Shown piece after piece: positions 35,095 to 49,996 of a stretch of 64,000 nucleotides of DNA. This DNA comes from Agromyces sp. H17E-10 (lineage in GTDB: Bacteria; Actinomycetota; Actinomycetes; Actinomycetales; Microbacteriaceae). The notes beneath the pieces were generated by a model, which was given only the letters and a program-made list of their open reading frames with translations, searched no databases and was not told the origin of the DNA. Location: positions 2,790,001 to 2,854,000 of the forward strand of contig NZ_CP095042.1 in assembly GCF_022919715.1 (NCBI RefSeq), written 5' to 3'. A program made the position numbers and the translations under genes. Within the stretch, counting starts at the first letter, position 1, and every line of letters begins with the position of its first letter.

Positions 35095-35115
35095 GGTGAC
35101 CTTTCGATTTTCAGT
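35095..35115. repeat. Left attachment site (attL core)
   Basis: The 21 bases from GGTGACCTTTCG to TTTTCAGT are identical to 49946-49966. To the left, CAGCTCCGATCA resembles the tRNA 3' end, but the ten bases that would complete the T-arm are missing. Confidence 0.9.
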
Positions 35116-35368
35116 GAGCCTGGGCGGTTTTCGCTCAATTCTTTTGGTTGCGATATCCCGCTGATCAGGGATTCTTCGAAACGGTCACAGTTGGTTTCAG
35201 ATACTTTTCGCGCATTTAATGGCACATTAATGGCACAGATTTCGGCTGACGGCGGGTCTCGTGGCGCCGGAAGTCCGGCGCCGGATCAAGGCGTGTTGCT
35301 AAAGGGCGCACGGTGAGTGATCTGGCCGTTTGCGGCCGCGCAGCTGGAGCCATTCGAGGGTTTGGTGT
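35116..35368. other. Left end of the element without a gene
   Basis: No coding frame looks real here. The stretch holds the left pair of AATGGCAC words (35216-35238), probably integrase arm sites, in AT-richer sequence than its surroundings. It ends downstream of the convergent desaturase gene. Confidence 0.6.
35216..35238. repeat. Left integrase arm-type repeat
   Basis: Two AATGGCAC words (35218-35225 and 35229-35236) spaced 11 bp apart lie within a 23-bp stretch identical to 49831-49853. It lies 100 bp inside the core. Arm-site function is inferred from symmetry of placement. Confidence 0.65.
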
Positions 35369-36463
35369 CTAGATGCTGGTGCGCTGCATCACGAGCGGGC
35401 ACTCGAAGGGGTCGCGTTCGCCGAGGCCGACCCGGTTGATGTACCGGAAGACGATCACGTACGAGCGCAACAGCGTGGTTCGGGTGTACGGGACCTCGTG
35501 GTCGTGGCAGTACGCCTCGATGATCGGCGCCGCGCGTCGGAGATGCGGACGCGGCATCGATGGGAAGAGATGGTGCTCGATCTGGTAGTTGAGCCCGCCC
35601 ATGACGACGTCGATCACGCGGTTGCCGCGGATGTTGCGGCTCATGAGCACCTGCCGCCGGAGGAAGTCGAGCTTCACGCCCTTCGGCACGAGCGGCATCC
35701 CCTTGTGGTTCGGCGCGAAGGCCATGCCCATGTAGAAGCCGAACAGGCCGAGCTGGACCGCCAGGAACACCACCGCCTTGTCCGGCGACAGGACGAGGAA
35801 CACGAGCGCCAGGAAGCCGATGATGCGTACGGCGAGGAACGCGATCTCCACCGAACGGTGCGGGAGAGGGGCTCTGGCGAACACCCGGTGCACGCTCGAC
35901 GCGTGCAGCGAGAGTCCCTCGAGCAGCAGGATCGGGAAGAAGAAGTAGCCCTGGTGCCCGATGACCCAGCGGAAGATCGCCGCCCGGTCGCGTTCGGCCT
36001 GCTCCGGCGTGAACACGACCACGGGCAGGTCGATGTCGGGATCCACGTCGATCTGGTTGGGGTTCGCATGGTGCCGGGTGTGCTTGTGCTGCCACCACCC
36101 GTAGCTCATGCCGACGAACCCGCCGAGGATGAGGCTGGTCCAGTCGTTCCACTTGCCGGATCGGAAGATCTGCCGGTGCGCGGCGTCATGGCCGAGGAAC
36201 GCGGTTTGCGTGAACAGAACGGCGAAGCCGACGGCGCTCAGCATCTGCCACCAGGTGTCGCCGATCCAGATGAACAGTGCGATAGCGGCCGCATAGGCGA
36301 GTGGCACGCTGATCAGTTTTGTCCAGTAGTAGCCGTATCGTCGGTGCATCAGGCCGGCACCTTTGATGATGCGAGCCAGATCGGTGAACGAGCTGGTGGA
36401 TGACTCCGCGGGCACGCTCGACGGCTTGCGCGTCCTGCGGACTGGGGAGATGTCGGAGGTCAT
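35369..36463 (-). CDS. Acyl-lipid/acyl-CoA fatty acid desaturase
   Basis: A protein of 364 aa. ATG 36463 is preferred (MTSDISPVRR). The three His boxes of membrane desaturases are HDAAH, HKHTRHH and QIEHHLF, with four or more membrane segments between them (LAYAAAIALFIWIGD, FLAVRIIGFLALVFLVLSP). The last box with Gln fits front-end or linoleoyl-CoA-type enzymes. It introduces a double bond into membrane fatty acids using O2 and an electron donor, and may help membrane fluidity in the cold. It is cargo at the left end of the element; no ferredoxin gene is nearby. Confidence 0.92.
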   Translation of the reverse strand: MTSDISPVRRTRKPSSVPAESSTSSFTDLARIIKGAGLMHRRYGYYWTKLISVPLAYAAAIALFIWIGDTWWQMLSAVGFAVLFTQTAFLGHDAAHRQIFRSGKWNDWTSLILGGFVGMSYGWWQHKHTRHHANPNQIDVDPDIDLPVVVFTPEQAERDRAAIFRWVIGHQGYFFFPILLLEGLSLHASSVHRVFARAPLPHRSVEIAFLAVRIIGFLALVFLVLSPDKAVVFLAVQLGLFGFYMGMAFAPNHKGMPLVPKGVKLDFLRRQVLMSRNIRGNRVIDVVMGGLNYQIEHHLFPSMPRPHLRRAAPIIEAYCHDHEVPYTRTTLLRSYVIVFRYINRVGLGERDPFECPLVMQRTSI

Positions 36464-36520
36464 GATGGGGCCGCTCTCTACGACACCGCACGCCAGGCTG
36501 GGCATGCGGTGGCGGCAACG

Positions 36521-36685
36521 CTAGGCGGGAGGCTTCCGTGCGCGTTGACGGATGATGCCGATGATGAGGGTGCCGACGAACAGGACGGAACCGATCATTG
36601 CGAGCCACAGTAGGCCCTCGAAGACGAACCCGACGATCGCCAGGATCGCCCAGACGGCGAGCAACACGATGATCAAGGTCCACAC
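36521..36685 (-). CDS. Small hydrophobic membrane protein
   Basis: A protein of 54 aa from GTG 36685 (WTLIIVLLAVWAILAIVGFV, then LLWLAMIGSVLFVGTLIIGI, ending RQRARKPPA). Two membrane helices and a basic tail match a common actinobacterial small-protein type. A TACTCT -10-like box ends 7 nt upstream, so translation may be leaderless. The frame is open to 36739, but the added residues look like upstream sequence. It lies upstream of the desaturase on the same strand. Confidence 0.6.
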   Translation of the reverse strand: MWTLIIVLLAVWAILAIVGFVFEGLLWLAMIGSVLFVGTLIIGIIRQRARKPPA

Positions 36686-36831
36686 ACTAGAAGAGTACGA
36701 AGAATGGGGCCACGACGAGAGGTCCTTGACAACTCCCACGGCGAGTGATCCATCCCCGTTCGCATTCCGCGTGCAGGCTATGCCGGTGCGAACCTGTGGG
36801 CGCTCACATCCGCGACACCTACTCTAAGAAC

Positions 36832-37011
36832 GTGAACATTTATCAGATTGTGCCGGGTGGCGCGGCAGGCGCTGCGCTTCGGGTCGAGGCATCCATGATC
36901 GCCCGCGCTCACGCGTTCTGGGTGCACTTCGACGGCCATCCGTCGAGCGTGACGCGGTGGGCCGACAGCGTGCGCGCGTCGTGGGTTCCCGCTCGTAAAG
37001 CGGGCATGTGA
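36832..37011 (+). CDS. Small hypothetical protein, first of a three-gene cargo operon
   Basis: A protein of 59 aa from GTG 36832. A TACTCT box at 36820-36825 lies 7 nt before the start, so the mRNA may be leaderless. Text visible: NIYQIVPGGAAGAALRVEAS, ARAHAFWVHFDGHPSSVTRW. Its TGA overlaps the next ATG (TGATG). No family recognised. Coupling to the next gene supports it being real. Confidence 0.5.
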   Translation: MNIYQIVPGGAAGAALRVEASMIARAHAFWVHFDGHPSSVTRWADSVRASWVPARKAGM

Positions 37012-37454
37012 TGACCCCCGACGCCAACGAGGAGTTCGGGGTCAGTCACATCCTCGTGAACGAGTTGCCGGCCGATCTTGGCACGCCAGACGCGGCGGCC
37101 CGGTATGACGTCGCCGCGGTCTTCACGCGACGACCGGACCCGCGTGAGCTCGAACTGCTCGAGCAACCAGCCGTTCACGCGAGGCTGGTCGAAGCGGGCT
37201 ACGCCGATGTCGGATTGCATGTCGCCGACCGTCGGCTGATCATCGAGCGCACGAACCTCGAGGAACTTGCCGACGGGCTTGCGGAGCTGATTGGCCAGAT
37301 CCTTGCGGAGATCGGAGCGCAGGCCGCAGCCGAGAAGGTCCGTCGAGACGAGACCGCGGCCGAGCAGGTGCGCGTAGAGACCAGCAGAGCCGCCGCAGTG
37401 GTCGCTGCCGCAGCGCGGATCGACTTCCGGCCGCATCGATCCACCTATGAGTAG
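37011..37454 (+). CDS. Hypothetical protein with helical C-terminus
   Basis: A protein of 147 aa from ATG 37011, overlapping the previous stop. The first 85 residues include FGVSHILVNELPADLGTPDA and ADVGLHVADRRLIIERTNLE, a compact alpha/beta pattern. Residues 90-135 are Ala/Glu/Arg-rich and probably a long helix or coiled coil (GQILAEIGAQAAAEKVRRDE). Function unknown. It lies between two small genes of the same operon on the element. Confidence 0.55.
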   Translation: MTPDANEEFGVSHILVNELPADLGTPDAAARYDVAAVFTRRPDPRELELLEQPAVHARLVEAGYADVGLHVADRRLIIERTNLEELADGLAELIGQILAEIGAQAAAEKVRRDETAAEQVRVETSRAAAVVAAAARIDFRPHRSTYE

Positions 37455-37469
37455 CGGAGGAATAGGGCT

Positions 37470-37682
37470 ATGTCGAAGCGCACGCGCAAAGAGGGCGCAC
37501 TCGCGGACGAACGTTGGGAGACGGACGGAGGCACGCTCGACGGTGACGCGACCAGCGATGCCGCCGCCGAGAACACGACACCGGCCGAAGAGCGAGCGAA
37601 GCGCTGGAAGGACGCCAACGCCGAGCACTGGCACGGCAGCGGCTCCAGCGACGAGACAAAACGGCGGGCAACGGAGCGCTGA
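37470..37682 (+). CDS. Small hydrophilic hypothetical protein
   Basis: A protein of 70 aa with a GGAGGAA ribosome binding site. It is very hydrophilic, starts MSKRTRKEGALADERWETDG and has ERAKRWKDANAEHWHGSGSS near the end. It is probably disordered. No function recognised. It is the third member of the small cargo operon, 15 nt after the previous gene. Confidence 0.5.
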   Translation: MSKRTRKEGALADERWETDGGTLDGDATSDAAAENTTPAEERAKRWKDANAEHWHGSGSSDETKRRATER

Positions 37683-37719
37683 TCCAGATCTATCTAGGTG
37701 CTGGCCGGCGGCTCGATTT

Positions 37720-37791
37720 GTGGTGATCGGATACGCCCGCGTCTCGACAACCGAACCGGACATCACCGCTCAGCGCAAACGGCCAGGTTGA
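37720..37791 (+). pseudogene. Serine recombinase (resolvase) N-terminal stub
   Basis: Only the first 23 residues remain, VVIGYARVSTTEPDITAQRK and a short aberrant end. IGYARVSTTE with the catalytic Ser is the N-terminal signature of serine resolvases/invertases. The normal continuation is lost at RPG-stop and no further homologous sequence is seen before the relaxase end at 37807. It is a remnant of a former recombinase gene of this or another mobile element. Confidence 0.75.
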
Positions 37792-37806: not shown

Positions 37807-40449
37807 TTATCGGCTGGGCCCAACTTGCGACGCCCGCCTCCGTACGGAGCCGGTCGCGAGCCCCCATACGGAATCGCGAGCAGCCTCAGTCGCCTTCGCG
37901 AGCCCACGGTCGGCACGATCTCGATCCAGCGCGACCACGAACTGCTCGCGTGCCTCATCCACGCCCGCTGCCACCAGGTGCACGCGGTTCAAGTGCCGCC
38001 CGCGAGTCAACCCCACGTAGACGCCCGCCGCCCCCATCGCATCGCTGACCACCGTGTGCGACTCGCCCACCGTCATGCCCTGCACCCCGTGCGCCGTCGC
38101 GGCGTACGCGAGATGCGTGTGCTCGGCGACGTACTCGGCTGGCACTCGCACTGATCGTGGCCGATGGCCGACGACACGCTCCGTCGCCCACACTGAGCCA
38201 TCCTCGTCCACGCGCCGAACAACCCACATCTGCCGGTTCGCCACCCGCACACCCGAGTCGTTCCGCCGAGTCTGAATCACATCACCGCGCCCGATGCTCA
38301 GACCATCGCTCCCGACCACTGTGCGGCCGTCATCCACGTCGCCGACGCGCACTCGCTCCTCGCGAATCCGCGCGTTCAGCTCGCGCGCCTCGTCGTTCGT
38401 TGCAACGGTCATCGCGCAACCCTCGCGCCACTCGCCAGCGAGCGCCTCGAGCTGCGCAGCCGGGCTTTCGTGAATCGAAACGAGTCCGAGCGCGCACAGC
38501 CGATCGAAGACCCCCTCCGGACGATCTCCGCGCCGCATCTGCACGGTGAGCGTGGCGTACTCCGGGTCGACGAATCGGTGCACGGCCGTCATGCGATGCA
38601 CGCGGGGGAGCAGCTGCGCGGACATCTCGAGCACGCCACCGCGGCCGACCGCCGAGAGTTGCGCACGGTCGCCGACCAGGGCGACCGTAGCGCCTGTCTC
38701 ATCGGCGATGATGAGCAACGCGAGCGCGGTGTCCTGATCGAGCATGCCCGCTTCGTCGACGACGATTCGCTCGCTGCGGCGCAGCCGAGCGGATGCCGAA
38801 GGGCCGGCATACGCGGCATCCGTATCGGGGTCGTGGTCGCCGATGGCGAGTCGCGTCCACACGCCGTCGCGATTCCACCGCCACCCGTGCTCGTGCACGA
38901 GCTTGGCGACGCTGTCGGTCGCAACCCCGAGCTCCTGGTGCGCAACGTCGGCCGCCTTCTTCGTCGGCGTGACCACGCGCGTCTTGCGACCCTGCATCGC
39001 CGCCGCCCTGATCGCAGCGGCAAGCATCGTCGTCTTGCCCGCGCCGGCCGCGCCCTCCACGACAACGAGCGATTGAGCGGATGCCACGGCCGCAGCCGCG
39101 CGCGCCTGTGCCGGGTCGAGCCTGAGTCGCTGTGCAATGCTCCGCAGGTCCGGCGTGCGCACCTGCGGCCGCTCGGCACGGGCCGTGAGCAGATCGCGCA
39201 GCCGGGTCTCAACGGCGATGACGTGCACGCTCGTCAGGTGCGCGACGTGCTCAGGACGTGGCCCATCGGGCGGCAGCACCGACACGCAGCCCTCGGTCGC
39301 GAGGTCCGTCGCGAGCATGACGAACTCGCGCAGTGGTGTCGGGTCGGCACGCACACCGGTCTCGGTCACGAGATGCGACACGCGCTCCTGGATGTCATGC
39401 ACCGTCCACGTCGACGCGGCGGCCGCGCATCGATCGAGCGCGCGGGACGCGACATCCTGCACGCTCAGTTCATCGAGCGCGACGGCCCTTTGCGTCCGCA
39501 CGCGGTCGAGATCAGGTCGATAGCCGGATGCCTCGAGCTCGCGTCGCCACGCATCCTCGCTGCCGAGCTGGGTCGGCTTCTTGTGCGGCCGCTCGTGATC
39601 CCACGCCATCGCGGTCAGTCGCGACATCGCGGCGGGTCCGGGTTCTTGGTCCGGATGCTGCGCACGCCAGTCCTTCTCGAAGTGCGCCAGGTTGCGCGCG
39701 ACCTGCTCGGCGCGCTTGCTCATCGCCGCGTTGAACGGCAGCAGTTCGGTGACTTCGGCTGTCACCGGATCGAGCGTCAGGCGATGCGCGTTGAGCGCGG
39801 CCGCGAGCCGCGGGTGCGCCGCGATCACAGCTGTGCCGAGCGCGCGGATCGCGCCTTGCTGCCGGAACAGCGCGGCAGTGTCGAGACCTCGCCACGCGGC
39901 ACCCGCCCAGACCCTCGTGCAGATCTGGAAGTGGATGTGCCGGTGCGGGTCGCCGGCCCGCGAGGTCTTGTGCGAGACCGCGACCGTCTCGAGCTGCTCG
40001 ACCGGCACCACCCGCTGCGACCCGCGCGGGCCGACTCGCGTGACCGAGTGCTGGCCGAGCCAGACGCGGATCTCGGCGACCGCGTCGCGCTGCGCCGCAT
40101 CTAGGGCGTCGGATACCTCGGGGTGAAGTGCCGCGGCGATCGACAGTGACTTCGGCGCGTTGACGACCATCTCGGCGAACCGCGGTGAGCCGTGGCGTGC
40201 GTCGCCGGCGTGGCGGGGCGTTCCCATCGACTCGCCGGTGAGCGGGTTGATCCAGTCGACCCACTGGGCGTACTGGCCGGGTGTGAGCGCGCCCTCGCCG
40301 ATCAGGTCGCCGTTGCCATCGACGACGGAGAACTCGGCCAGCGCCGTGCCGCCCTCGAGGTAGTAGTCGTCGGCGCGGGAGCGATCGGACTCGAGGTACC
40401 GGCGCGCGTCGGCCCCGGAACCCCGGTACAGGATCACTCCACCACGCAT
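37807..40449 (-). CDS. MobF-family relaxase/helicase (TrwC/TraA-like)
   Basis: A protein of 880 aa. ATG 40449 follows a GGAGG ribosome binding site. The N-terminal relaxase domain shows a Tyr pair in ADDYYLEGG near residue 32 and the metal-binding His cluster HRHIHFQI (H169, H171, H173). The C-terminal part is a RecD-like helicase with Walker A GAAGAGKT (466-473), Walker B VVDEAGML (D565) and AHGVQGMTV. It would nick oriT and unwind the strand for transfer. It is shorter than conjugative relaxases (often above 1000 aa). No coupling protein or type IV secretion genes accompany it. Confidence 0.92.
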   Translation of the reverse strand: MRGGVILYRGSGADARRYLESDRSRADDYYLEGGTALAEFSVVDGNGDLIGEGALTPGQYAQWVDWINPLTGESMGTPRHAGDARHGSPRFAEMVVNAPKSLSIAAALHPEVSDALDAAQRDAVAEIRVWLGQHSVTRVGPRGSQRVVPVEQLETVAVSHKTSRAGDPHRHIHFQICTRVWAGAAWRGLDTAALFRQQGAIRALGTAVIAAHPRLAAALNAHRLTLDPVTAEVTELLPFNAAMSKRAEQVARNLAHFEKDWRAQHPDQEPGPAAMSRLTAMAWDHERPHKKPTQLGSEDAWRRELEASGYRPDLDRVRTQRAVALDELSVQDVASRALDRCAAAASTWTVHDIQERVSHLVTETGVRADPTPLREFVMLATDLATEGCVSVLPPDGPRPEHVAHLTSVHVIAVETRLRDLLTARAERPQVRTPDLRSIAQRLRLDPAQARAAAAVASAQSLVVVEGAAGAGKTTMLAAAIRAAAMQGRKTRVVTPTKKAADVAHQELGVATDSVAKLVHEHGWRWNRDGVWTRLAIGDHDPDTDAAYAGPSASARLRRSERIVVDEAGMLDQDTALALLIIADETGATVALVGDRAQLSAVGRGGVLEMSAQLLPRVHRMTAVHRFVDPEYATLTVQMRRGDRPEGVFDRLCALGLVSIHESPAAQLEALAGEWREGCAMTVATNDEARELNARIREERVRVGDVDDGRTVVGSDGLSIGRGDVIQTRRNDSGVRVANRQMWVVRRVDEDGSVWATERVVGHRPRSVRVPAEYVAEHTHLAYAATAHGVQGMTVGESHTVVSDAMGAAGVYVGLTRGRHLNRVHLVAAGVDEAREQFVVALDRDRADRGLAKATEAARDSVWGLATGSVRRRASQVGPSR

Positions 40450-40632
40450 CGCCTTCCTCCGAGCTATCTCAGGTTCTTGCAACTACCTACGGTAGCATAC
40501 GTCCATTCATCCAGTTCCGGGTGGATCTTCCGGTGTGGGCTGTGTGCCCGGGTGGGTGGGCCTGACTAGACTTTGTGAGCACGCTGTCTGGGTAGGTCAG
40601 GGCATGATCATGCATCGGAAGGGGGTCGTATC
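40450..40632. promoter_or_regulatory. Relaxase control region and candidate oriT
   Basis: It holds CAGGTTCTTG (40470-40479), a relative of two operator-like words at 48274 and 48312, and a short palindrome CTACC-TAC-GGTAG (40483-40495) with a TATGCT -10-like box for the relaxase next to it. The stretch between 40500 and 40580 is G/T-rich. MobF oriT sites usually lie next to the relaxase gene, which is why oriT is suggested here. No nic consensus could be assigned. Confidence 0.35.
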
Positions 40633-41631
40633 GTGGCGACGAACGACCAACTGAAGGCGCTGGTTCAGAGCCATGCTGACGGCGATGATCCCCAGTTCTA
40701 CGCGGTAGCGATGCAAGTCGCTGCGAAGGCAGCACGGGCAGGGCAGTCGAAGTTCGCTCAAGATCTTCGGGATCTTGTCGATGAGCTACGAAATCGGAGC
40801 CAGGCGTCGTCGCGTGTTGCGGCGGTCGTACCTGTAACTCAACCTCGCGGCGAGCTGGGGTCACTCCTCACTGTGACTTATCCAGATGCTCGCCTGAGTG
40901 ATCTTGTCCTATCGGATGGTCTCAAGGCTCAGCTCCGGCACGTCTTGTTGGAGCAACGACAGCGCGACACACTAGCGAAGCATGGGCTCTCACCCGCGCG
41001 ACGGATGTTGTTGATCGGTCCTCCCGGCACTGGTAAGACGTCATCAGCTCGAGTGCTCGCCGGCGAACTTGGGCTGCCGCTATTTGCAATCCGGTTGGAC
41101 ACCATAATCACCAAATTCATGGGTGAGACAGCCGCGAAACTGCGCCTGGTCTTCGATGCGCTGGTGGAAACTCGCGGGGTATATCTCTTCGACGAGGTGG
41201 ACGCGCTCGCCGGTGATCGAGCTGCGCCGAACGACGTGGGTGAGATACGAAGAGTCCTGAACTCGTTTCTGCAGTTTCTCGAAGAGGATACGTCCGAGAG
41301 CTTGATTGTGGCGGCGACCAATCATCCCCAGCTGCTCGACAAAGCCCTATATCGTCGATTCGACACAGTAATGAACTTCACTCTCCCGAGTCAGGACAAC
41401 GTGCAGGCAGTAATTCAGAACCGGCTGGCGACGTTCCAGACGAGCAACTTGAGTTGGTCAAGGATTGGGCCGGCTGCGGCAGGGCTTAGTCACGCGGAGA
41501 TCGCAACCGCTGCTGAAAACGCTGCCAAGCGTAGTGTTCTCGCTCATCGGACTCGTGTGTTGACCGATGATCTGATCGCCGCCCTCGTAGAGCGGCAACG
41601 TTCCGCAGGCTCACTCGGCCAGGACGTCTAA
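40633..41631 (+). CDS. ietA: AAA ATPase of a probable IetAS-type defence pair
   Basis: A protein of 332 aa from GTG 40633. It has one AAA module: Walker [15 protein letters not shown] (129-136), Walker B VYLFDEVDALAGDR (186-190) and sensor region LIVAATNHPQLLDKALYRRFD. The first about 75 residues are helical. It lies 5 nt before a subtilase gene. An AAA ATPase plus subtilase pair is the make-up of IetAS, first described as a plasmid stability/exclusion pair in Agrobacterium and later listed among phage-defence systems. The assignment rests on pairing, order and sizes. Codon use is less GC-rich than the chromosome. Confidence 0.8.
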   Translation: MATNDQLKALVQSHADGDDPQFYAVAMQVAAKAARAGQSKFAQDLRDLVDELRNRSQASSRVAAVVPVTQPRGELGSLLTVTYPDARLSDLVLSDGLKAQLRHVLLEQRQRDTLAKHGLSPARRMLLIGPPGTGKTSSARVLAGELGLPLFAIRLDTIITKFMGETAAKLRLVFDALVETRGVYLFDEVDALAGDRAAPNDVGEIRRVLNSFLQFLEEDTSESLIVAATNHPQLLDKALYRRFDTVMNFTLPSQDNVQAVIQNRLATFQTSNLSWSRIGPAAAGLSHAEIATAAENAAKRSVLAHRTRVLTDDLIAALVERQRSAGSLGQDV

Positions 41632-41636
41632 GCGGG

Positions 41637-44177
41637 ATGAGTGAGCGTGATCGCCCGCACATTGTTGTGCCCGGCCGCATGCGGTCTGAGTCCTTCACGA
41701 TTCCCACGGGTGGTGGTGGAAACGAAGGGCGCGCGTTCGAGGGCGACCGACGGGGTCACGGCGCTCGGCTCGTGGGCGAATACGAACAGGTCGTTTCGTC
41801 GGCCTCTGCCATTCCTGAACCGTCTGGCACATACGTGTCGTTCGTGTCGTTTGCGGGTGTCGAGCTTGCAATCGAGAGTCTTGACGTCCAGCGGAGCGGC
41901 GATCAGCCAGAGTTGGTGGCAGTTCGAGAGGTCCAGTCCGAGGACGGTGTGACTCAGATTGCAACCGTCTTCGTTCCTGAGGGCCGCAAACAGTACTTCC
42001 TGCAGCGTCTGCAGAAGTACACCGAAACGGCGGACGCGAAATCGCCGAGCAACGCGACTCTTGTGGAAGGAGTCCAGTCCATCCGTCGAGCGACGATTCG
42101 CGAGCTTTGGACCGACTCTGATTCTGAGTTCCCCGCCTCTTGGACCGAACTAACGTGGTGGGAGGTGTGGTTGCGCAAACGGGATGGCAACGAATTGAAG
42201 CGCCTCACTGGGTTCGCGGACGCTCACGGAATCCGCATGAGCGGCCACTATCTCGGGTTCGGCAGTCGCACAGTCGTCCTGATGCACGCGACTGCCGATC
42301 AGCTCACGGATGCCTTCCGATCGATGGACGATTTCGCTGAGCTCCGGAAGCCGCACGAGATTGCGACGCTCCTAACAGAACTGTCCGCGTCAGAGCAGGC
42401 CGAGTGGGTGGATGACCTGCAAGCACGACTTCGCCCGGCGGCGAGTGGTGCGCCAGTTGTGTGCCTTCTCGACACGGGCATACAGAGTGACCATCCGTTG
42501 CTTGCAGGCTCGATTGATGCCAGCGACCAACACGTCGCCGACCCTTCTTGGCAGCTTCGCCCGGTCCATCGACATGGTACGGAGATGGCCGGGTTGGCGC
42601 TTTACGGCGACCTGCACGGAGCGTTGCTCGATGCAGGCACAGTTGAACTGGCGCATCGACTCGAATCGGTCAAGTTTCTGCCCGACCGTGGAGACAACAA
42701 TAGAGATCTCTATGGTGCCGTTACTGCGCGGGCCATCGATCAGCCAGAGATTCAGGCGGCCGACAGATCACGTGTGTTCATGCTCGCGGTCACGGCCCCC
42801 GGTTCAGCTTCGGGCTCCGGGGCTGCCGGTGAATCCGGAAAGCCAACATCATGGTCGGCCGCCATCGACGCGCTGTCCTTCGGGCGAGCAATCGACGACA
42901 CCGACCCGAAGCTCACATACCTTGATCGAGACGAGCCGCGCAGGCCGAGGCTGTTCGTGGTCTCCGCCGGGAACATTCGCGACATCGATGGTCAGGATGA
43001 CTACCTCGAGCGAAGCGATTTGGAGCCTGTCGAGGATCCTGCTCAATCCTGGAATGCCCTTACGGTTGGGGCCTATGCAGGCAACGACGACATGGCTGGT
43101 GCCGCCGCTGATTTCGCGGGCTACCGCCCGATTGCCCCGCGTGGCGAACTTTCTCCGGTCAGCCGAACGTCCGTCCTCTTCGAGCGGAAGAAGTGGCCGT
43201 TTAAGCCCGATGTCGTGGCGGATGGCGGAAACGTCGCGGTATCTGAGGACGGGTCGCATGTCGATACGCCCGAGAATCTGGCCCTGTTGACCACCAGGTT
43301 CCGGAACCCGGGGGACGGCTTCTTTACGACGACGCGTGACACCTCGGCGGCGACTGCGTCGGTGGCGGCGCTCGCGGCCGATATTTTCGCGGTGTATCCC
43401 GAGCTCCGCCCAGAGACGGTCCGAGCGCTAATAGTCCACTCAGCGGAATGGACGAATGCCATGCGCGCCCGCTTCGATGCCGAATCAACTAAGAGCGCGC
43501 TAGCGAACTTGCTTCGGCGCTACGGGATGGGCGTTCCGAGCGTCGATCGGGCCCTATATAGCGCAGCTGATGCGCTCACTCTGGTCTCCGAAGCGCGCAT
43601 TCATCCGTACGAACGAGATGGCGCAAGCAATGCGGGTCGTACTCGCGAGATGAATCTGCACGAATTGCCGTGGCCGGTTGACGTGCTTGAGGGGCTTGGT
43701 GAGACGAGAGTGAGGATGCGGGTCACGCTTTCCTACTTCGTCGAACCCAACCCCTCAAGTCGCGGTTGGAGCGGTCGATACATCTATCCCTCCCATGGGC
43801 TCCGATTTGCGACTCGCAGGCCTGAGGAGAGCGTTGATTCCTTCCGTCAGCGGATCAACACAAAGGCGCGGATCGAAGGTCGTAAGCCACCGGGTCTGGA
43901 GACTGAATCCGGCTGGCTCTTCGGCACCAACCAACAGCAAGCCGCGGGCTCCCTGCACACGGACATCTGGACAGGCCCTGCAGCCGCCCTAGCGAGCAAG
44001 GGAGCAATTGCTGTGTACCCGGTTGCGGGATGGTGGAAGAACCGTGCACGGGATGACCAGAGCGCTCGGGGCGTTGACTACTCGTTGGTCGTAAGTATTG
44101 AGTCGCCGGAGGTTGAGGCGGACTTGTGGACGCCCGTCAGCCAGCAGGTGCTGACCGCGGTAGCCGTCACAACCTAG
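41637..44177 (+). CDS. ietS: S8 subtilisin-like protease of a probable IetAS-type pair
   Basis: A protein of 846 aa with no signal peptide, so it should be cytoplasmic. The triad is readable: Asp279 in VCLLDTGIQSDHP, His313 in HRHGTEMAGLALYG, and Ser570 in RDTSAATASVAALAA; the oxyanion Asn region is FVVSAGN. About 270 residues precede the protease domain and about 230 follow. The ATPase just upstream presumably controls the protease, which could cut a host protein on infection. All catalytic residues are intact, so the system may be active. Confidence 0.82.
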   Translation: MSERDRPHIVVPGRMRSESFTIPTGGGGNEGRAFEGDRRGHGARLVGEYEQVVSSASAIPEPSGTYVSFVSFAGVELAIESLDVQRSGDQPELVAVREVQSEDGVTQIATVFVPEGRKQYFLQRLQKYTETADAKSPSNATLVEGVQSIRRATIRELWTDSDSEFPASWTELTWWEVWLRKRDGNELKRLTGFADAHGIRMSGHYLGFGSRTVVLMHATADQLTDAFRSMDDFAELRKPHEIATLLTELSASEQAEWVDDLQARLRPAASGAPVVCLLDTGIQSDHPLLAGSIDASDQHVADPSWQLRPVHRHGTEMAGLALYGDLHGALLDAGTVELAHRLESVKFLPDRGDNNRDLYGAVTARAIDQPEIQAADRSRVFMLAVTAPGSASGSGAAGESGKPTSWSAAIDALSFGRAIDDTDPKLTYLDRDEPRRPRLFVVSAGNIRDIDGQDDYLERSDLEPVEDPAQSWNALTVGAYAGNDDMAGAAADFAGYRPIAPRGELSPVSRTSVLFERKKWPFKPDVVADGGNVAVSEDGSHVDTPENLALLTTRFRNPGDGFFTTTRDTSAATASVAALAADIFAVYPELRPETVRALIVHSAEWTNAMRARFDAESTKSALANLLRRYGMGVPSVDRALYSAADALTLVSEARIHPYERDGASNAGRTREMNLHELPWPVDVLEGLGETRVRMRVTLSYFVEPNPSSRGWSGRYIYPSHGLRFATRRPEESVDSFRQRINTKARIEGRKPPGLETESGWLFGTNQQQAAGSLHTDIWTGPAAALASKGAIAVYPVAGWWKNRARDDQSARGVDYSLVVSIESPEVEADLWTPVSQQVLTAVAVTT

Positions 44178-44257: not shown

Positions 44258-44587
44258 CTACCCTGCTCGTCCGCGGCGGCCGGGCGGTAGGAGCCCGCGG
44301 TCGCGCGCCTTCGTGATCCAACCCTGAGCGGTGGAGAGGGCAACGCCGTTGAGCTCCGCCATCGTCGCGCGCGGGTTCCTGTCGCCCTTCCGTGCGAGGT
44401 ATCCGCGCAGGAGATCGACAAGCTCGTAGAAGTCGGGAACCTTCTTCGGGTCACCGAGGGGCTTGAGCAGTGTCGCCCTCGCTGGTCTTCTGACCCACGG
44501 CAGCACGATCTTGCCGCCGGATCTCGTCTCGGTGCGCTTCACCGCGAAGAGGCGCTTGCTGATCGCGGCCTCGATGCGGGCGGTCAC
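44258..44587 (-). pseudogene. Truncated duplicate of the 47540-48250 element gene
   Basis: It encodes about 109 residues closely matching the C-terminal half of the protein at 47540-48250: TARIEAAISKRLFAVKRTET, DPKKVPDFYELV, NGVALSTAQGWITKARDRGL, ending RRGRAG in both. The N-terminal half is absent, and the match stops sharply at the ACCGCCCGCATCGAG junction. Between KIVLP and LLKPL a compensated frameshift changes about eight residues. The two copies have the same orientation and bracket 44588-47539. Confidence 0.82.
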
Positions 44588-45138: not shown

Positions 45139-46518
45139 TCAACCACCCAGGGCCTCGAGAGCTCCGATCGTTCGGAGCCACTCGCTTAGTCGGATTCTGC
45201 TGGCGATCATCGATTCCAGATCGGCACCGGTGACTGGGAAGACAGTTCCGACACCTCGAATCTGAACGGTTTTGAGCCGCCGCTTGAAGGGCTTCGTAAA
45301 ACCGGACATCGAAACAAATACTCCGACACGCGCGGCACCCTTGCGGTCCTCAAGCTTTCCTTCGAAGTCACGCAAGGACTTAACTCCGACTCTCTCCGCC
45401 CAGTTCTTGCACTCGACGAGGATGTACGGGCTGTGGTGCGCTACCCAGAACGCATGGCTCAGCCCATTACTCAGCACAAGGTCGATCTCCTCTTCCTCAG
45501 TACTGAAGTTCTTCTTGAGCAGTTCGAGATCCTCGCCTTCAGCTCGGAGTAGTGCATCGACGAGGCTTTCGAGAGCATCCCCTCGTGCCTTGCGTGTCGC
45601 AGTGGTGCGATCGCCGTTGAGGTCCTTCAACCTCGTTAGTTCGGCGGCGGCGCGACCAAACCAGTAGTTAGACCCAAGTTGATTCTCAAACTGCGCGAGC
45701 GCCCCATACAGGGAACCAAGGCGCTCTGAATAGTCGGCGAGTCCAGCCCCGGCCGACCGCCAGTACTCGTCGAGGTACGCCTTCGCGTCCGCCACGGTGT
45801 TTATGTCGTACTCGCAGAGCTCTTCGGTGAAGACGTACCTAACTTCGGCTTCATCCGGTAAGTGCCGGAGCAGAATGGCGAGCAGGAACGGCCACGCTAT
45901 GGTCGGCGCTTCGCGGAAGAGAAGTGTGACCGCTTCAACTGCACGACCGGCTGGAAGCGGGTCGTCGCCAGCCGCTTGCGCTGCAAAGATCGCCTGACTG
46001 ATGCCAGACGTCGACGGTTCCGGCAAACTGCCGTACCGCAGATCCTTGAACAGCAAGACCTCTCGGTCTGGGTCCGACCAGGCAGAGGCCAGCAGGCGAC
46101 CGAGTGCATCAAGGTCATCCTCTGGTGTGGCGCTTGCGGAGATCTCGATCTCGTGTTCAATAAGCGCACGCGACTCGTCCCACGTGGCGTCTGGATTCTC
46201 CATCATGTGTTTGGCGGTCATCATCCCGGTGAGAAGAGCCCCCGCGACTGCACCACCCCTAAGGCCGCCATACCCACCCACAACAAAGATCCGCCCGAAC
46301 CCGTTCTGCTCGAGCACGTTGCGGACGCCCGCCACCGTTGAGCGGAGCTCCCCGATCACTGGCCAGGGAGTCGTGTCATCGTCGGGATCGCACTCGAGAT
46401 CGCCCCCTTCGATCACGGCGTCCGAGTAGTTGAACAAGAGCCGCGGGAGCCAGCTCGATTGCTTGCGCCACTCAATGGCAGTTCGCCCAGCGACTTCCAA
46501 GTACGTGTCGTACCCCAT
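45139..46518 (-). CDS. PD-(D/E)XK nuclease (Mrr-like) with unfamiliar N-terminal domain
   Basis: A protein of 459 aa. ATG 46518 has a GAGGAGG ribosome binding site. Residues 308-420 form a restriction-endonuclease-like core: E317 in RGDALESLVDALL, D346 in EEEIDLVLS, and E369-x-K371 in ILVECKNWAERVGVKSL, the Mrr_cat pattern. The N-terminus (MGYDTYLEVAGRTAIEWRKQ) weakly recalls the N-terminal domain of HEPN/Toprim-associated defence proteins, and FVVGGYGGLRGGAVAGALL is a Gly-rich stretch. No methylase is adjacent, so it could be a modification-dependent or abortive nuclease. G+C is lower than the chromosome. Confidence 0.78.
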   Translation of the reverse strand: MGYDTYLEVAGRTAIEWRKQSSWLPRLLFNYSDAVIEGGDLECDPDDDTTPWPVIGELRSTVAGVRNVLEQNGFGRIFVVGGYGGLRGGAVAGALLTGMMTAKHMMENPDATWDESRALIEHEIEISASATPEDDLDALGRLLASAWSDPDREVLLFKDLRYGSLPEPSTSGISQAIFAAQAAGDDPLPAGRAVEAVTLLFREAPTIAWPFLLAILLRHLPDEAEVRYVFTEELCEYDINTVADAKAYLDEYWRSAGAGLADYSERLGSLYGALAQFENQLGSNYWFGRAAAELTRLKDLNGDRTTATRKARGDALESLVDALLRAEGEDLELLKKNFSTEEEEIDLVLSNGLSHAFWVAHHSPYILVECKNWAERVGVKSLRDFEGKLEDRKGAARVGVFVSMSGFTKPFKRRLKTVQIRGVGTVFPVTGADLESMIASRIRLSEWLRTIGALEALGG

Positions 46519-46694
46519 ACGTCCTCCTCGCCAATTGCCACGTGCCGTTGCACAGTATCGGATGTGACGAGGCGTCCTACATATCGCGTCGTCGGACTCA
46601 GGAGCTGCTCGAATACGTCGGGGCCGACCCATTTCGTCGGGCGTCCGCGACTGAGTCGCACACCGGCCGAGTGCTTGCTCGAGTTCGGGGTAGT

Positions 46695-47177
46695 GTGCCG
46701 GACGTGGAATTCGTCGAGCCCGGAGTGATTTGGTACGCCCCTAATGAGTTCCTGTCGCACTTTCACCCCTCCGACGACTGCGGATTCGGTGGTCACCAAT
46801 GCCCGGGTGCTTGGCACGTGCTGGAGCGGGTACGGGAGGATGAACGGTACGAAGCGGTGAAGAAGTCGCTCCAGCAACATGGGTGGGTGCGACCGTTGCC
46901 GTGGCGTTGGACAGTCAATCCGCGCAAGTGGGGCGATCTCCGCGTGCGGGAACTCCTTGACGGCCACAACAGGGCCTCGGCGGCAGTCGAAATGGGCCTC
47001 GATCTTCCTCTCGTCGAGGTAATCACGGTTGATGCCATAGCGGATGACTCGGGTCGTTGGAATCCGGGTGATGAGATTCCGCCGACGACGCTGACCGCGA
47101 TGTATAAGTCGAGCCAGATCGCTCACCCTCATCCGTGGGCGGAATCGTGGCCCGACGCCGCCGGCGGCCAAGAATGA
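46695..47177 (+). CDS. ParB-like N-terminal-domain protein
   Basis: About 160 aa if GTG 46695 is the start; the frame is open to 46542, and GTG 46704 is also possible. ELLDGHNRASAAVEMGLDLP followed by VEVITVDA matches the ParB/Srx-like 'DGHHR' motif, with VKKSLQQHGWVRPLPWRW before it in the position of the first ParB box. Chromosome-partitioning ParB features are missing. It is divergent from the nuclease gene (177 bp apart), so the two may form one module. Its role is unknown. Confidence 0.65.
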   Translation: MPDVEFVEPGVIWYAPNEFLSHFHPSDDCGFGGHQCPGAWHVLERVREDERYEAVKKSLQQHGWVRPLPWRWTVNPRKWGDLRVRELLDGHNRASAAVEMGLDLPLVEVITVDAIADDSGRWNPGDEIPPTTLTAMYKSSQIAHPHPWAESWPDAAGGQE

Positions 47178-47539
47178 CTTGCAGGTGTCTCGCTCTCGAT
47201 CACCGCTCCCCACGCCTTCTTGACAGGTCACCGGTCGGCCGGCGATGCGCCGACGGTAGCGTCCTGAGCATGGATCTTCTTCTCGCTGGCGTACCCGGGA
47301 GCGTCCGGTGTCCGAAAGCCGGTCGTTAGCCGTCGGTCGGCCTCGACCGCACGTACCCCCTTAGCGTGCGAGCTGTCGTTTCGTAGACCTCGCCCGGTGA
47401 AGCTGGCCCTTGAGGAGCGCCTACTGCAATGGTGGGCGCCATACGGTAGCGGCGATCGGGTGGGTCTCAGGCGCCGATCCGCTTTGCCTCGTTTCGAAGC
47501 TGCCGCTGAATGCGCGGGCCTCCGACAGCGTCGTGGAGA
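47178..47539. other. Gene-poor stretch of 362 bp
   Basis: No convincing gene was seen. It holds a 19-codon frame at 47271-47330 (MDLLLAGVPGSVRCPKAGR) without a good ribosome binding site, and an Arg-rich frame at 47397-47609 that overlaps the next gene antisense. It may be decayed cargo between the ParB-like gene and the full-length element gene. Confidence 0.4.
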
Positions 47540-48250
47540 TTATCCCGCTCGTCCACGCCGTCCAGGCGGCAGTAGCCCGCGCTCGCGCGCCTTGGTGATC
47601 CAACCTTGAGCGGTAGAGAGGGCTACCCCGTTGATCTCCGCCATCGTCGCGCTCGGGTTCGCGTTGCCCTGCTGCGTGAGCCGGCCGTGCTGCAGCGCGA
47701 CCAGCTCGTAGAAGTCGGGCACCTTCTTCGGGTCGCCGAGGGGTTTGAGCAGGTCGCGCTCGCTGATCTTGTGACCTGAGGGCAGCACGATCTTGCCGCC
47801 GGTGATGGTCTCGGTGCGCTTCATCGCGAAGAGGCGCTTGTTGATCGCGGCCTCGATGCGGGCGGTGGGCAGCTCGCGCAGGAGCTGGCTCGTGATCGGG
47901 TCGCCCGGACGCCAGGGGAGGTAGATCACGCCGGTGATGCGGATCTCCTCGGGCACGGCGAGCGGCTGACGCTGGAGGCGGATCATTATGCGGGTGTGCG
48001 TGGCTTCGTGCTCGAGGTAGCGCCAGCGTCCGTCGATCGTCTCGTTCTCACCGGAGGTGCGCTGGTCTTCGAGCTGTGAGTCGGTCGTGGCGCTGTCGTC
48101 GTAGCCGAGCACCGCGTCGATCTGTGCGCTCGCATCGTCGTCACGCTCACCAGGAAACCGGCTGGGCAGGTACCAGCCCTCGGGAAGGTCGTCTTGGTGC
48201 AGGAGGCCGTCGTGCGACTGGTCGCCTGGGCGGTGCGGGGAGTCCGACAT
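47540..48250 (-). CDS. Element-encoded hypothetical protein with C-terminal helix-turn-helix
   Basis: A protein of 236 aa. The acidic N-terminal half contains RIMIRLQRQPLAVPEEIRIT. The C-terminal half has ARIEAAINKRLFAMKRTETI, DPKKVPDFYELVALQHGRL and a helix-turn-helix-like NGVALSTAQGWITKARERGL, ending in basic RRGRAG. It is divergent from the excisionase-like gene with two CAGGTACTTG words between them. A DNA-binding role is likely, possibly as the element regulator that binds those words. A truncated copy lies at 44258-44587. Confidence 0.72.
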   Translation of the reverse strand: MSDSPHRPGDQSHDGLLHQDDLPEGWYLPSRFPGERDDDASAQIDAVLGYDDSATTDSQLEDQRTSGENETIDGRWRYLEHEATHTRIMIRLQRQPLAVPEEIRITGVIYLPWRPGDPITSQLLRELPTARIEAAINKRLFAMKRTETITGGKIVLPSGHKISERDLLKPLGDPKKVPDFYELVALQHGRLTQQGNANPSATMAEINGVALSTAQGWITKARERGLLPPGRRGRAG

Positions 48251-48273
48251 GCGACGAGTCTAGCCACACAACT

Positions 48274-48324
48274 CAGGTACTTGCCGAAACCCGCGACATA
48301 GGGCATAATCTCAGGTACTTGCAA
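48274..48324. promoter_or_regulatory. Divergent promoter with two CAGGTACTTG operator-like words
   Basis: For the excisionase gene, TTGCCG (48281-48286), a 17-bp spacer and CATAAT (48304-48309). For the minus-strand gene, TTGCAA (48319-48324), 17 bp and CTATGT (48296-48301). CAGGTACTTG at 48274-48283 overlaps the plus -35; the copy at 48312-48321 overlaps the minus -35 and lies just past the plus -10. The word is near-palindromic (8 of 10). A related copy is at 40470. Confidence 0.6.
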
Positions 48325-48390
48325 ATAGCCGCGCATGGGTCGGCATGCACGAGATGCCAGCCGGCGGCCGATGAGTCGAGGGGGAGCGTC

Positions 48391-48588
48391 ATGGCTGACA
48401 CCGCGTGGAGGGTCGATTACCTGAGCCGAGTCGAGGCGGCGGAGCGGTGTCGCATCCCGGTCTCGAGCTTCGACAAGCTGCGCCACGACGGGCTGATCCC
48501 CGAGCCCGACGCTCGCATGGGCAAGCACCTGCTCTGGAGCGCCGACACGATCGACGAGTTGCTCGCGCGGGGTGGAACGGAACACTGA
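48391..48588 (+). CDS. Excisionase-like helix-turn-helix protein
   Basis: A protein of 65 aa with a GAGGGGGAG ribosome binding site. It has a MerR/excisionase-type winged motif: YLSRVEAAERCRIPVSSFDK then LRHDGLIPEPDARMGKHLLW and ADTIDELLA. Its TGA overlaps the integrase ATG by one base. Such proteins steer integrases toward excision or regulate them. It is transcribed from the divergent promoter at 48274-48324. Confidence 0.82.
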   Translation: MADTAWRVDYLSRVEAAERCRIPVSSFDKLRHDGLIPEPDARMGKHLLWSADTIDELLARGGTEH

Positions 48589-49886
48589 TGGCCGGGCGGC
48601 CGACGAGAGACACCCCGTCGCGGGTCGATCCGCGCACGGGTCGGCCGCTGCCCGAAGGCATCCGCTGGCGCGCCGACCGGCAGCGCTACCAGATCCGCGT
48701 CGTCGGCCCCAGCGTCGAAGGCGGCGCCGCCGAACGCTCCCGCACATTCCTCACCCTCGCCGAGGCCAAGCGCGAACTCGCGAAAATGGTCGCCGGGCGC
48801 AACCCGAACGGATCGATGACGCTCGACCAGTGGTACGACAAGTACTGGCCGGCGATCGAGTCATCCATCCGCCCGGCGACGGCCCGCAGCTACGGCGTGG
48901 CCTGGCGACTCCGGGTGAAGCCGAGCCTCGGCCGGCACCGGCTCGACGAGATCACCTCGCCCATGATCGAGTCGGCGATGGTCGCGTGGTCTGGCGCGGC
49001 ATCCGCCAAGAACGACGCCCTTGCGGTGCTCTCGCGCCTGCTCGACGGCGCACGTCGCTCGCGGTTCATCGACTACAACCCGGCCCGCGAGGTGAAGCGG
49101 CCGAGCATGCGCGAGTCGATCTCGCCGGTGTCGCGGGCACTCACCCTCGAGCAGATCAGCGCTCTGCTCGGCCTGATTCCTGACGGCGTCTACCGCCGCT
49201 ACTTCGCCGCACTCGTCTACACGGGCATGCGAGCGGGAGAGGCGACCGCGCTGCGCGTCGGCGACGTCGACTTCGGGCGCGGCATCATCCGCGTCAGTCG
49301 CTCGCTGAGCCCGGGAATCCGCGGCGAGCTCATCGAGCAGTCGCCCAAGAGCCACAAGTCGCGGGATGTGCCGCTGATCGACGCACTGCGCCCGTACGCC
49401 GAAGCTGCCGCGCGCGGCAAGCGGGGGAGCGACCTGCTCTTCGCCGGCCCCGACGGCGGACGCCTCACGAATCACAACGCACACCGCGCGGTGAACTGGG
49501 AGGAGCTGCGCGAGGCCATCGGTCGGCCCGACCTGCGCATCCACGACCTGCGGCACACGTTCGCGACGATCCTGTTCGACGCCGGCGCCACCGCGCCCGA
49601 CGTGCAGGCGACCCTCGGCCACTCGAGCCTGCAGGTCACCGAGCGCTACTCACGCGCTCGCGAGGGCGTCGCGCTCCGGGCCGGCGCCGCGTTGAACGAT
49701 GCGCTCAAGCGAGCCGATGAAAGCACCGACGCGAGCGGAGCCAAGACCGGCGCCAAGACCGCCGCCAACAGTGAAGCCGAGCCGGCCCATCCAGAACCAG
49801 AAATGGCACAACGCCGAACCCGGCGAATAGTTAATGGCACATTAATGGCACAGCCTCACGAGCGCCCTCGAGGAATGTCCCTCTGA
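48588..49886 (+). CDS. int: Tyrosine recombinase/integrase of the element
   Basis: A protein of 432 aa. It has an N-terminal arm-binding part, a core-binding SAM-like domain (residues 75-180), and the catalytic domain with R215 in TGMRAGEA, H319 and R322 in HDLRHTF, H345 in LGHSS and nucleophile Y354 in ERYSRAR. All five residues are intact. The last codons run through the right arm-type repeat (GTLMAQP is encoded by it), so arm sites and the gene end overlap. It sits 59 bp from the tRNA-Phe attachment core and should catalyse integration and excision there. Confidence 0.95.
   Translation: MAGRPTRDTPSRVDPRTGRPLPEGIRWRADRQRYQIRVVGPSVEGGAAERSRTFLTLAEAKRELAKMVAGRNPNGSMTLDQWYDKYWPAIESSIRPATARSYGVAWRLRVKPSLGRHRLDEITSPMIESAMVAWSGAASAKNDALAVLSRLLDGARRSRFIDYNPAREVKRPSMRESISPVSRALTLEQISALLGLIPDGVYRRYFAALVYTGMRAGEATALRVGDVDFGRGIIRVSRSLSPGIRGELIEQSPKSHKSRDVPLIDALRPYAEAAARGKRGSDLLFAGPDGGRLTNHNAHRAVNWEELREAIGRPDLRIHDLRHTFATILFDAGATAPDVQATLGHSSLQVTERYSRAREGVALRAGAALNDALKRADESTDASGAKTGAKTAANSEAEPAHPEPEMAQRRTRRIVNGTLMAQPHERPRGMSL
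49831..49853. repeat. Right integrase arm-type repeat
   Basis: A 23-bp stretch identical and in the same orientation to 35216-35238. It holds AATGGCAC at 49833-49840 and 49844-49851, with a third copy at 49802-49809. It lies inside the integrase 3' coding end, 92 bp from the core. Confidence 0.65.
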
Positions 49887-49890
49887 CACG

Positions 49891-49918
49891 AAAAAACCCC
49901 CGGTCTCCCGGGGGTTTT
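49891..49918 (-). terminator. Intrinsic terminator of the tRNA operon and integrase
   Basis: The stem CCCCCGG/CCGGGGG (49897-49903 with 49908-49914) has a TCTC loop and is flanked by A6 and T4, so it can work on both strands. Read on the minus strand it ends the tRNA-Glu-Asp-Phe transcript just past tRNA-Phe. It lies inside the element. Confidence 0.85.
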
Positions 49919-49923
49919 GACTG

Positions 49924-49996
49924 TGGCTCCGACCGGCATCGATCCGGTGACCTTTCGATTTTCAGTCGAACGCTCTACCAACTGAGCTACAGAGCC
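49924..49996 (-). tRNA. tRNA-Phe (GAA), attachment target of the element
   Basis: The reverse complement starts GGCTCTGTAGCTCAGTTGG, has the anticodon loop CTGAAAATC (GAA) and the T-arm around GATCGATGCCGGTCGG, and ends GGAGCCA. No CCA is encoded. Cloverleaf pairing is intact. The 21-bp attachment core (49946-49966) covers the anticodon arm and variable region, and everything 3' of it comes from the element. Confidence 0.95.
49946..49966. repeat. Right attachment site (attR core) inside tRNA-Phe
   Basis: A perfect 21-bp copy of 35095-35115. On its right the chromosomal 5' half of tRNA-Phe continues. Confidence 0.9.

Follow-up and report, generated by a model that had tools for sequence, protein, structure and literature searches.

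The tRNA-Phe locus of Agromyces sp. H17E-10 raises the question of what kind of mobile element occupies it, how such an element would move, and what it carries. We analyzed a stretch of 64,000 bp (the window, positions 2,790,001 to 2,854,000 of a genome that is a single 4,250,163-bp contig); coordinates below are those of the window unless a genome position is given. A sequence-only reading of the window had proposed a complete mobilizable element with defence-like cargo. Our preferred answer, which we hold at a probability of roughly 0.85, is an integrative and mobilizable element (IME) with a MobF relaxase, in which a fixed core kit is combined with two replaceable, defence-rich cargo bays. 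It would excise through its integrase (Int) and a xis-like protein and be transferred by the machinery of another element.

A repeat within tRNA-Phe marks both ends

A 21-bp direct repeat, GGTGACCTTTCGATTTTCAGT, is present at 35095-35115 and 49946-49966, and the spacing of its copies gives the element length, 14,851 bp. The features of the two ends are as follows.

35072 to 35094: host-side flank of the left attachment (att) core, a degenerate tRNA-Phe 3' half
35095 to 35115, no strand: left att core, 21 bp (repeat search, sequence)
35216 to 35237, no strand: left arm-type repeat pair TTAATGGCACATTAATGGCACA (sequence reading, att alignment)
49831 to 49852, no strand: right arm-type repeat pair TTAATGGCACATTAATGGCACA (sequence reading, att alignment)
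49946 to 49966, no strand: right att core, within tRNA-Phe (repeat search, sequence)
49923 to 49996, minus strand: tRNA-Phe (GAA), the single full match in the genome

The proposed positions of the repeat were confirmed, the right copy lying inside tRNA-Phe. Because the element of the relative G018 has identical ends, repeat and backbone, the repeat is not a chance occurrence. It spans the anticodon region, so the element provides the 3' part of the tRNA-Phe gene. The arm-type repeats were also read at both ends as proposed and, with variants, recur in the att regions of most aligned relatives.

The core kit is that of an IME

Four genes make up the conserved kit.

37807 to 40449, minus strand: MobF/TrwC relaxase-helicase, ATG at 40449 (PF08751, E 5.8e-42; start set by conservation)
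47540 to 48250, minus strand: 236-aa core protein of helix-turn-helix (HTH) type (conservation; low-confidence structure model)
48391 to 48588, plus strand: small xis-like protein immediately ahead of int (placement; conserved in relatives)
48588 to 49886, plus strand: tyrosine integrase, 432 aa (tyrosine recombinase models; frame opens at 48588)

The relaxase carries a TrwC domain and a fused AAA_30 helicase, and scores 116.8 bits against the MobF model NF041492, above the cut-off of 100. Model matches bear out the integrase and relaxase of the earlier reading, and both look intact. Its excisionase stands as a small conserved gene directly before int, but the name xis comes from position and conservation. 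An IME has a site-specific integrase, att repeats that mark a particular target, and its own relaxase and/or origin of transfer (oriT), and lacks coupling-protein and mating-pore genes. Here we found the integrase and repeats at tRNA-Phe, the relaxase, and an oriT predicted by comparison. None of the element proteins scanned by profile matched a type IV secretion system (T4SS) protein, a scan in which the smallest open reading frames (ORFs) were left out and distant homologues could be missed, and a whole-genome search for the TraG/TraD coupling-protein domain gave one locus only, at 4.04 Mb, outside the element. This agrees with the proposal of a relaxase without coupling protein or secretion genes. 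The T4SS that an integrative and conjugative element (ICE) would own was therefore not seen in the profile searches, and the FtsK/TraB-type translocase of an actinobacterial ICE of the TraB type (AICE) was absent from the matches of the scanned proteins.

The HTH-type protein has 579 homologues at E ≤ 1e-3; among the matches listed (120) all are either without a name or annotated as hypothetical, and a Pfam domain is absent from each. Outside Agromyces it occurs in 18 of 299 genomes drawn from the family (13 of 85 genera), and it has no match in the plasmid collection. Its structure model (mean pLDDT 72.6) finds no match in the PDB at E ≤ 1e-3, the best sensible structural hint being a DeoR-type DNA-binding domain with a probability of 0.90 but an E of 0.47.

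The family sits at tRNA-Phe and moves between species

Among 60 genomes of the genus, this one included, 20 carry the relaxase (E ≤ 1e-60), and in 16 of them it runs without a break through almost its entire length. Of the 20 genomes, 19 have it on the contig that carries tRNA-Phe (within 14 kb in 18, at about 47 kb in G027); the sole other case, G017, is a fragmented genome. The closest relaxases among named genomes are mostly from Agromyces. A second copy of the tRNA 3' half was present in 20 of the 57 tRNA-Phe regions; 9 more have family genes or pieces and no 3'-half copy within the stretch examined, and 28 have neither inside the 0.9-15 kb examined. Some of these 28 are possibly occupied, since two genomes counted there (G045 and G021) have a 3'-half fragment on another contig. 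Some 3'-half repeats flank islands of other kinds, which makes tRNA-Phe a general hot spot.

The nearest relative, G018, carries a 10.1-kb element with the same backbone. The half from relaxase to attL is 96.5% identical between the two over 5,422 bp (desaturase DNA, 99.7%) and the half from tRNA to the HTH gene 90.1% over 2,456 bp, while the DNA lying between these two halves is not shared; in the chromosomal flank right of the tRNAs, identity is 80.8% over 10,787 bp, and in FtsH, which lies there, 89.8%. We compared distances by Mantel tests in 15 genomes, dropping those with broken, partial or missing genes. Distances of FtsH and M23 agreed (r 0.70, p 0.0005). Those of the relaxase followed neither FtsH (r 0.04, p 0.34) nor M23 (r 0.15, p 0.09) nor the HTH protein (r -0.16, p 0.84), and agreed in part with the integrase (r 0.41, p 0.003). 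As relaxase distances do not track the host, and one half reaches 96.5% identity to G018 against 80.8% for the flank, these comparisons indicate that the element is moving between species and that its modules are reshuffled. The mobility and tRNA-Phe targeting first proposed for it find support in the same identities and in the placement of the relaxase.

The locus holds further variety. Beyond attL in G053, where the relaxase of the first element has an internal stop, there is an apparent second element at the same tRNA, with a different integrase and with the desaturase and its 70-aa and 148-aa companions in opposite orientation. G027 has tandem islands, with 3'-half repeats at 300183 and 330276, the tRNA at 368672 and the relaxase in the distal island. 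In Microbacterium, Compostimonas, Actinotalea and others, some relaxase relatives are found near tRNA-Leu, Ser, Glu, Pro or Val genes, and these show only distant integrase matches. In the window, attL is separated by about 11.5 kb of additional variable DNA (within 20116-35094) from the genes that neighbour tRNA-Phe elsewhere in the genus (clusters c4, c3 and c13, about 20116-23570). A left-flank SDR gene was tried as an empty-site marker and rejected: homologues exist in 21 other genomes, and not one of them shares a contig with tRNA-Phe at a distance of 100 kb or less.

Predicted excision, and whether this copy is trapped

Int and the xis-like protein would excise the element. The description of the element as complete has to be qualified, as the host 3' half that it displaced is degenerate: at attL the core matches at 21 of 21 positions and the tRNA 3' half at 32 of 43. 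When excision was simulated for 20 att pairs, several of which flank unrelated elements, by joining the 5' part of the tRNA to the left flank, ARAGORN found a restored tRNA-Phe in 19, the only failure being this genome, whose product matches tRNA-Phe at 62 of 73 positions. Since no tRNA-Phe is restored and the genome has only one full match, we predict that excision of this copy should be costly or lethal.

The alternative that survives best is that a formerly mobile IME is now trapped, its host 3' half having decayed so that any loss would remove the only tRNA-Phe and leave a fixed defence island. The mismatches at attL, the failure of this genome alone in the simulation and the single tRNA-Phe all speak for it. 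However, integrase, xis-like gene, relaxase, att core and arms appear intact; transfer remains possible with transient excision, or if the donor dies after donating; and the near-identity of one half to the element of another species makes transfer evolutionarily recent. We give trapping real weight, although short of even odds. With this copy one can test whether an element becomes locked in once the displaced tRNA half has decayed.

Cargo lies in two bays with sharp edges

Three blocks are conserved: att-int-xis-HTH, the relaxase with its leader, and the left att arm. Between them lie bay 1, from the HTH stop codon to the relaxase leader, and bay 2, from the relaxase to the left arm. Across 20 aligned elements, two of them relics, mean pairwise identity at the leader edge drops from 0.93-0.97 on the inner side, through 0.50 across the five edge bases, to 0.26-0.28 on the outer side; at the HTH stop it falls from 0.75-0.82 to 0.26-0.30. 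ORFs of the relatives came from a simple caller, so that their cargo is approximate, and for G024, G026 and G048, which have no attL in the stretch, bay 2 ends with the stretch and may include DNA outside the element. The cargo of the H17E-10 element is as follows.

35369 to 36505, minus strand: fatty acid desaturase, bay 2 (PF00487, E 2.3e-38)
36521 to 36739, minus strand: 72-aa ORF, no family match
37008 to 37454, plus strand: 148-aa ORF travelling with the desaturase (homologues in G018 and G053; no family match)
37470 to 37682, plus strand: 70-aa ORF travelling with the desaturase (homologues in G018 and G053)
40633 to 41631, plus strand: IetA-type AAA ATPase, bay 1 (PADLOC IetA, E 1.8e-75; NCBIfam IteA, E 1.9e-63, under cut-off)
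41637 to 44177, plus strand: IetS-type S8 protease, divergent, bay 1 (PADLOC IetS, E 1.8e-36; PF00082, E 1.3e-52)
44258 to 44587, minus strand: truncated second copy of the HTH gene (last about 330 bp), between two cargo modules (repeat search)
45139 to 46632, minus strand: Mrr-type nuclease ORF, bay 1 (PF04471, Mrr_cat, E 5.6e-10; PDC-S02, E 4.7e-7)
46542 to 47177, plus strand: ParB-like ORF, a weak label, bay 1 (one weak PADLOC match)

The AAA ATPase/subtilase pair of the sequence-only reading proved to be IetA and IetS by PADLOC, an IetA-type ATPase next to an IetS-type subtilase. By eye, the D-T-G, H-G-T and T-S-A motifs are kept in IetS and the Walker motifs in IetA. IetAS was absent from the other tRNA-Phe regions examined, and strong IetA matches in two other genus genomes lie on contigs other than that of tRNA-Phe. 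The nuclease named earlier matches Mrr_cat, and its true start may be an ATG near 46518, whereas the ParB-like protein keeps its label by one PADLOC match (E 3.5e-4) and has none in Pfam. The desaturase does not stand beside the ATPase/subtilase pair, as had been stated: small ORFs and the relaxase lie between, and it belongs to the other bay. The description of the cargo as defence-like holds for IetAS and the nuclease and extends to the relatives, but the desaturase cluster is second-bay cargo that is not evidently defence.

Bay 1 here consists of two modules, ParB-like/nuclease and IetAS, with the 330-bp copy of the HTH 3' end between them. G047 also has a second HTH copy, a longer, frameshifted remnant with homology reaching further upstream, which makes ordinary recombination likelier than a site-specific event; the idea of the partial copy as a site-specific scar was dropped on the same evidence. 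The simplest reading is that recombination at the HTH 3' end would stack modules in bay 1.

The bays of the family are rich in predicted anti-phage systems

In a pooled PADLOC scan (E ≤ 1e-8), 275 models matched in 111 cargo ORFs and 5 in 111 control ORFs, counts of models rather than proteins in which related models inflate the 275. The cargo ORFs came from 15 relatives (111 of 112 scanned, a second relaxase fragment being left out), and the controls were drawn at random from 220 ORFs in tRNA-Phe regions without the element. When 40 hand-picked, mostly large cargo proteins were scanned singly, 12 matched at E ≤ 1e-10, spread over 8 of 14 elements: AriAB (G013); AbiU, DRT4 and a type I restriction enzyme (G016); PDC-M02B (G047); LmuB and a type II enzyme (G009); Dsr1 (G046); a CBASS cyclase with SAVED-TIR (G053); a type II enzyme (G024); and QatA (G048). 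The bays are natural search sites for uncharacterised defence genes. In slots that elsewhere hold CBASS, DRT, Lamassu, Qat and restriction systems, large cargo proteins of about 700-1380 aa without a PADLOC match at E ≤ 1e-10 are present in the L095, L099, L100, L101, L109, L111 and L112 bays; we consider them candidates for new defence systems.

The relaxase leader is probably an oriT

The region before the relaxase gene, and the intergenic region between xis and the HTH gene, hold the following features.

40450 to 40510, no strand: conserved relaxase leader with predicted oriT, operator-like box and ribosome-binding site; edge of bay 1 (alignment of 20 elements)
40468 to 40480, minus strand: box GCAAGAACCTGAG before the relaxase (motif search)
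40483 to 40508, plus strand: predicted oriT core, comprising a CTACC-TAC-GGTAG hairpin, CATACGTC, the predicted nic after 40503 and CATTC (comparison)
48272 to 48284, minus strand: box GCAAGTACCTGAG in the xis-HTH intergenic region (motif search)
48310 to 48322, minus strand: box GCAAGTACCTGAG in the xis-HTH intergenic region (motif search)

With at most two substitutions, ACGTATGCTACC is retained in 18 aligned loci, other genera included, and there is no conservation upstream of it. A longer leader pattern occurs in 21 of the 60 genomes, at one site each (reversed control, 0 of 60). These are the 19 genomes with the relaxase on the tRNA-Phe contig and two, G023 and G042, with relics at tRNA-Phe in which the oriT-like leader survives beside a relaxase truncated to about 90 residues; such relics could be mobilizable in trans. 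No solitary site with the full pattern was seen on other elements of the genus in the 60 genomes. A similar core stands before the MobF relaxases of six plasmid records. In pMspBDGP8A and the Frigoribacterium NBH87 and M. hominis plasmids, with relaxases 44-45% identical, ATGCACGTATGCTAC precedes the gene and is followed by stems of different sequence. ACGTAT and a hairpin are kept in Rhodococcus pLW1 and the M. paraoxydans plasmid (60%; same leader), Arthrobacter pChr15 (42%) and Rothia p3 (35%). Summed over 14 sites, which are not independent, hairpin scores reach 65, against 30.6 (s.d. 5.3, maximum 45) in 1,000 shuffles, and four plasmid sites reach P < 0.05 singly. In R388, eight nucleotides separate the hairpin from a nic on its 3' side (PMC4814116), and that spacing places nic here after 40503. 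The predicted nic is about 4 to 9 bases from the edge of bay 1 in all 20 aligned elements. From this comparison, the leader is probably an oriT with its nic at the bay 1 edge.

The window contains the motif GCAAGWACCTGAG at exactly three sites, one upstream of the relaxase and two in the xis-HTH intergenic region. We infer that the motif is a shared operator, perhaps of the HTH protein, which would then co-regulate xis/int and the relaxase.

The position of nic admits a bolder mechanism, in which nic defines bay 1, and strand-joining at oriT together with recombination at the HTH 3' end swaps and stacks modules, making the element a conjugation-driven exchanger of immunity cassettes. As the edge of bay 1 lies just past the predicted nic, the defence cargo would form the leading region and arrive in the recipient ahead of all other DNA. 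Plasmid leading regions are described in one report as hot spots of anti-defence genes (PMC11541004), and strand-joining at oriT by the relaxase TrwC is mentioned in another (PMC3264647). The idea of oriT scars within the bays was dropped, each element having one site only. We consider this mechanism unlikely. Slightly less probable still is that the leader is only a promoter and regulator site: it does contain a ribosome-binding site and a box also present before xis and the HTH gene, and its hairpin is not significant by energy alone, but the core with a hairpin of differing sequence recurs before plasmid MobF relaxases, where the HTH protein has no match, and the geometry fits the R388 spacing as far as that source describes it (PMC4814116).

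Proposed transfer through a helper, and what weighs against it

For the MobF IME that we favour, we hypothesize that the relaxase would nick oriT just before its own gene, at the predicted nic after 40503 on the plus strand of the window, and lead the nicked strand through the coupling protein and T4SS of another element. With nic at that position and strand, bay 1 would enter first (IetA, IetS, nuclease), followed by HTH-xis-int and bay 2 (desaturase), with the relaxase gene last. Selection would keep the core kit, while both bays remain replaceable and rich in anti-phage systems. What the computations show is the boundaries, the family, its horizontal spread, the sharp edges of the bays, the enrichment in defence models and the common core of the leader; excision, nicking, use of a helper, regulation and defence activity are inferences. 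The plasmid-like predicted oriT makes the helper question directly testable.

The genome holds distant homologues (25-31%) of plasmid coupling-protein, ATP-binding and SCO6880 genes at 4.041-4.049 Mb. A second MobF relaxase (1158-aa frame, about 29% identical to that of the element), beside which the oriT core was not found, lies about 41 kb further along, near 4.083 Mb. Around the coupling protein, 7 of 10 ORFs gave no domain and several are evidently on the wrong strand, with mostly sugar-metabolism genes on the other strand. The span 4,041,000-4,085,000 of the genome is a possible chromosomal conjugative element. Among these coupling-protein, T4SS-like and relaxase genes, no helper for the element was identified. 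The related plasmids pMspBDGP8A and NBH87 carry coupling-protein, ATP-binding, SCO6880 and VirB2-type genes and are labelled non-mobilizable by MOB-suite, which labels pChr15 conjugative, MOBF.

Several observations weigh against the mobile, helper-dependent and defence-rich IME. Comparison at tRNA-Phe, as the earlier reading advised, gave other cargo within the family and 28 of 57 regions apparently empty, but no exact empty allele. The tRNA-to-HTH half, at 90.1% identity to G018, is no closer than the core gene FtsH at 89.8%, so only the relaxase-to-attL half stands clearly above the chromosome. The degenerate 3' half left of attL, with which excision would not restore tRNA-Phe, may have locked this copy in. 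As to the oriT, Bifidobacterium pNAC3 (relaxase 34%) has no core match, none of 8 IME hairpin sites is significant singly (P 0.056-0.47), and the hairpin of the window alone is not unusually stable (z -0.33). The presence of a TraG-type coupling protein shows no association with that of the relaxase: 7 of the 20 relaxase-bearing genomes have one, as do 16 of the 40 others. VirB4-type PF19044 was found in 0 of 5 genomes, distant SCO6880-like and ATP-binding matches being seen separately. Of the singly scanned cargo proteins, 28 of 40 had no defence match, and Pfam shows non-defence cargo (melibiase, transposases, sigma factors) in the bays of other elements. IetA (214.8 of 510 bits) and IetS (72.6 of 900 bits) miss the NCBIfam equivalog cut-offs, so the pair is a divergent relative of IetAS rather than a strict equivalog.

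An alternative in which the relaxase is a relic, and the genomic island moves solely through phage packaging or homologous recombination at tRNA-Phe, is very improbable: the relaxase is the only recognised conjugation gene, has a break or is incomplete in 4 of 20 genomes and sits at a hot spot used by other integrases too, but it is unbroken in 16 of 20 and conserved together with a leader that resembles plasmid leaders, and the matches of the scanned element proteins include no phage structural domain, no phage-specific library having been searched.

Comparison with known systems

We did not find this IME family in the open-licence literature searched. The family is delimited and open to comparison: a fixed transfer kit, roughly 5 kb long, is combined with interchangeable cargo, much of it immune systems, across Agromyces species, and relatives of its relaxase are also present in other Micrococcales. 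The 2017 review of Guedon et al. (PMC5704250), in the parts that bear on this point, gives canonical IMEs relaxases of the MobP, Q, V or C type, none MobF, and counts one IME in Actinobacteria. Those elements share with ours the tyrosine integrase, the tRNA target, their own relaxase and the lack of coupling and mating-pore genes; the element here differs from them in being MobF and actinobacterial. MobF IMEs were reported in Mesorhizobium after that review (PMC8627217), so that MobF IMEs as such are already known. As far as that report describes them, they share the MobF relaxase, the chromosomal location and tRNA and other att sites, tRNA-Phe included, whereas most carry a Ti-like traACD locus and they belong to another phylum.

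The defence-carrying ICEs and IMEs of E. coli (PMC10121019) and Vibrio europaeus (PMC12824646) are likewise, in the relevant parts of both accounts, integrated and hold exchangeable anti-phage systems at hot spots; they live in other hosts, and those parts describe no two-bay layout. The Micrococcales plasmids pMspBDGP8A, NBH87 and pChr15 share a MobF relaxase (42-45% identical) and a similar leader core before its gene, but have coupling-protein and T4SS-type genes and no match to the HTH protein. With the IetAS system, as modelled in PADLOC, the element shares an AAA ATPase followed by an S8 protease; here IetS is divergent, and both proteins score below the equivalog cut-offs. Taken together, the element is best read as an IME, a kind already known, and the family, with its two-bay layout, plasmid-like predicted oriT and defence load, looks like a new form of that kind.

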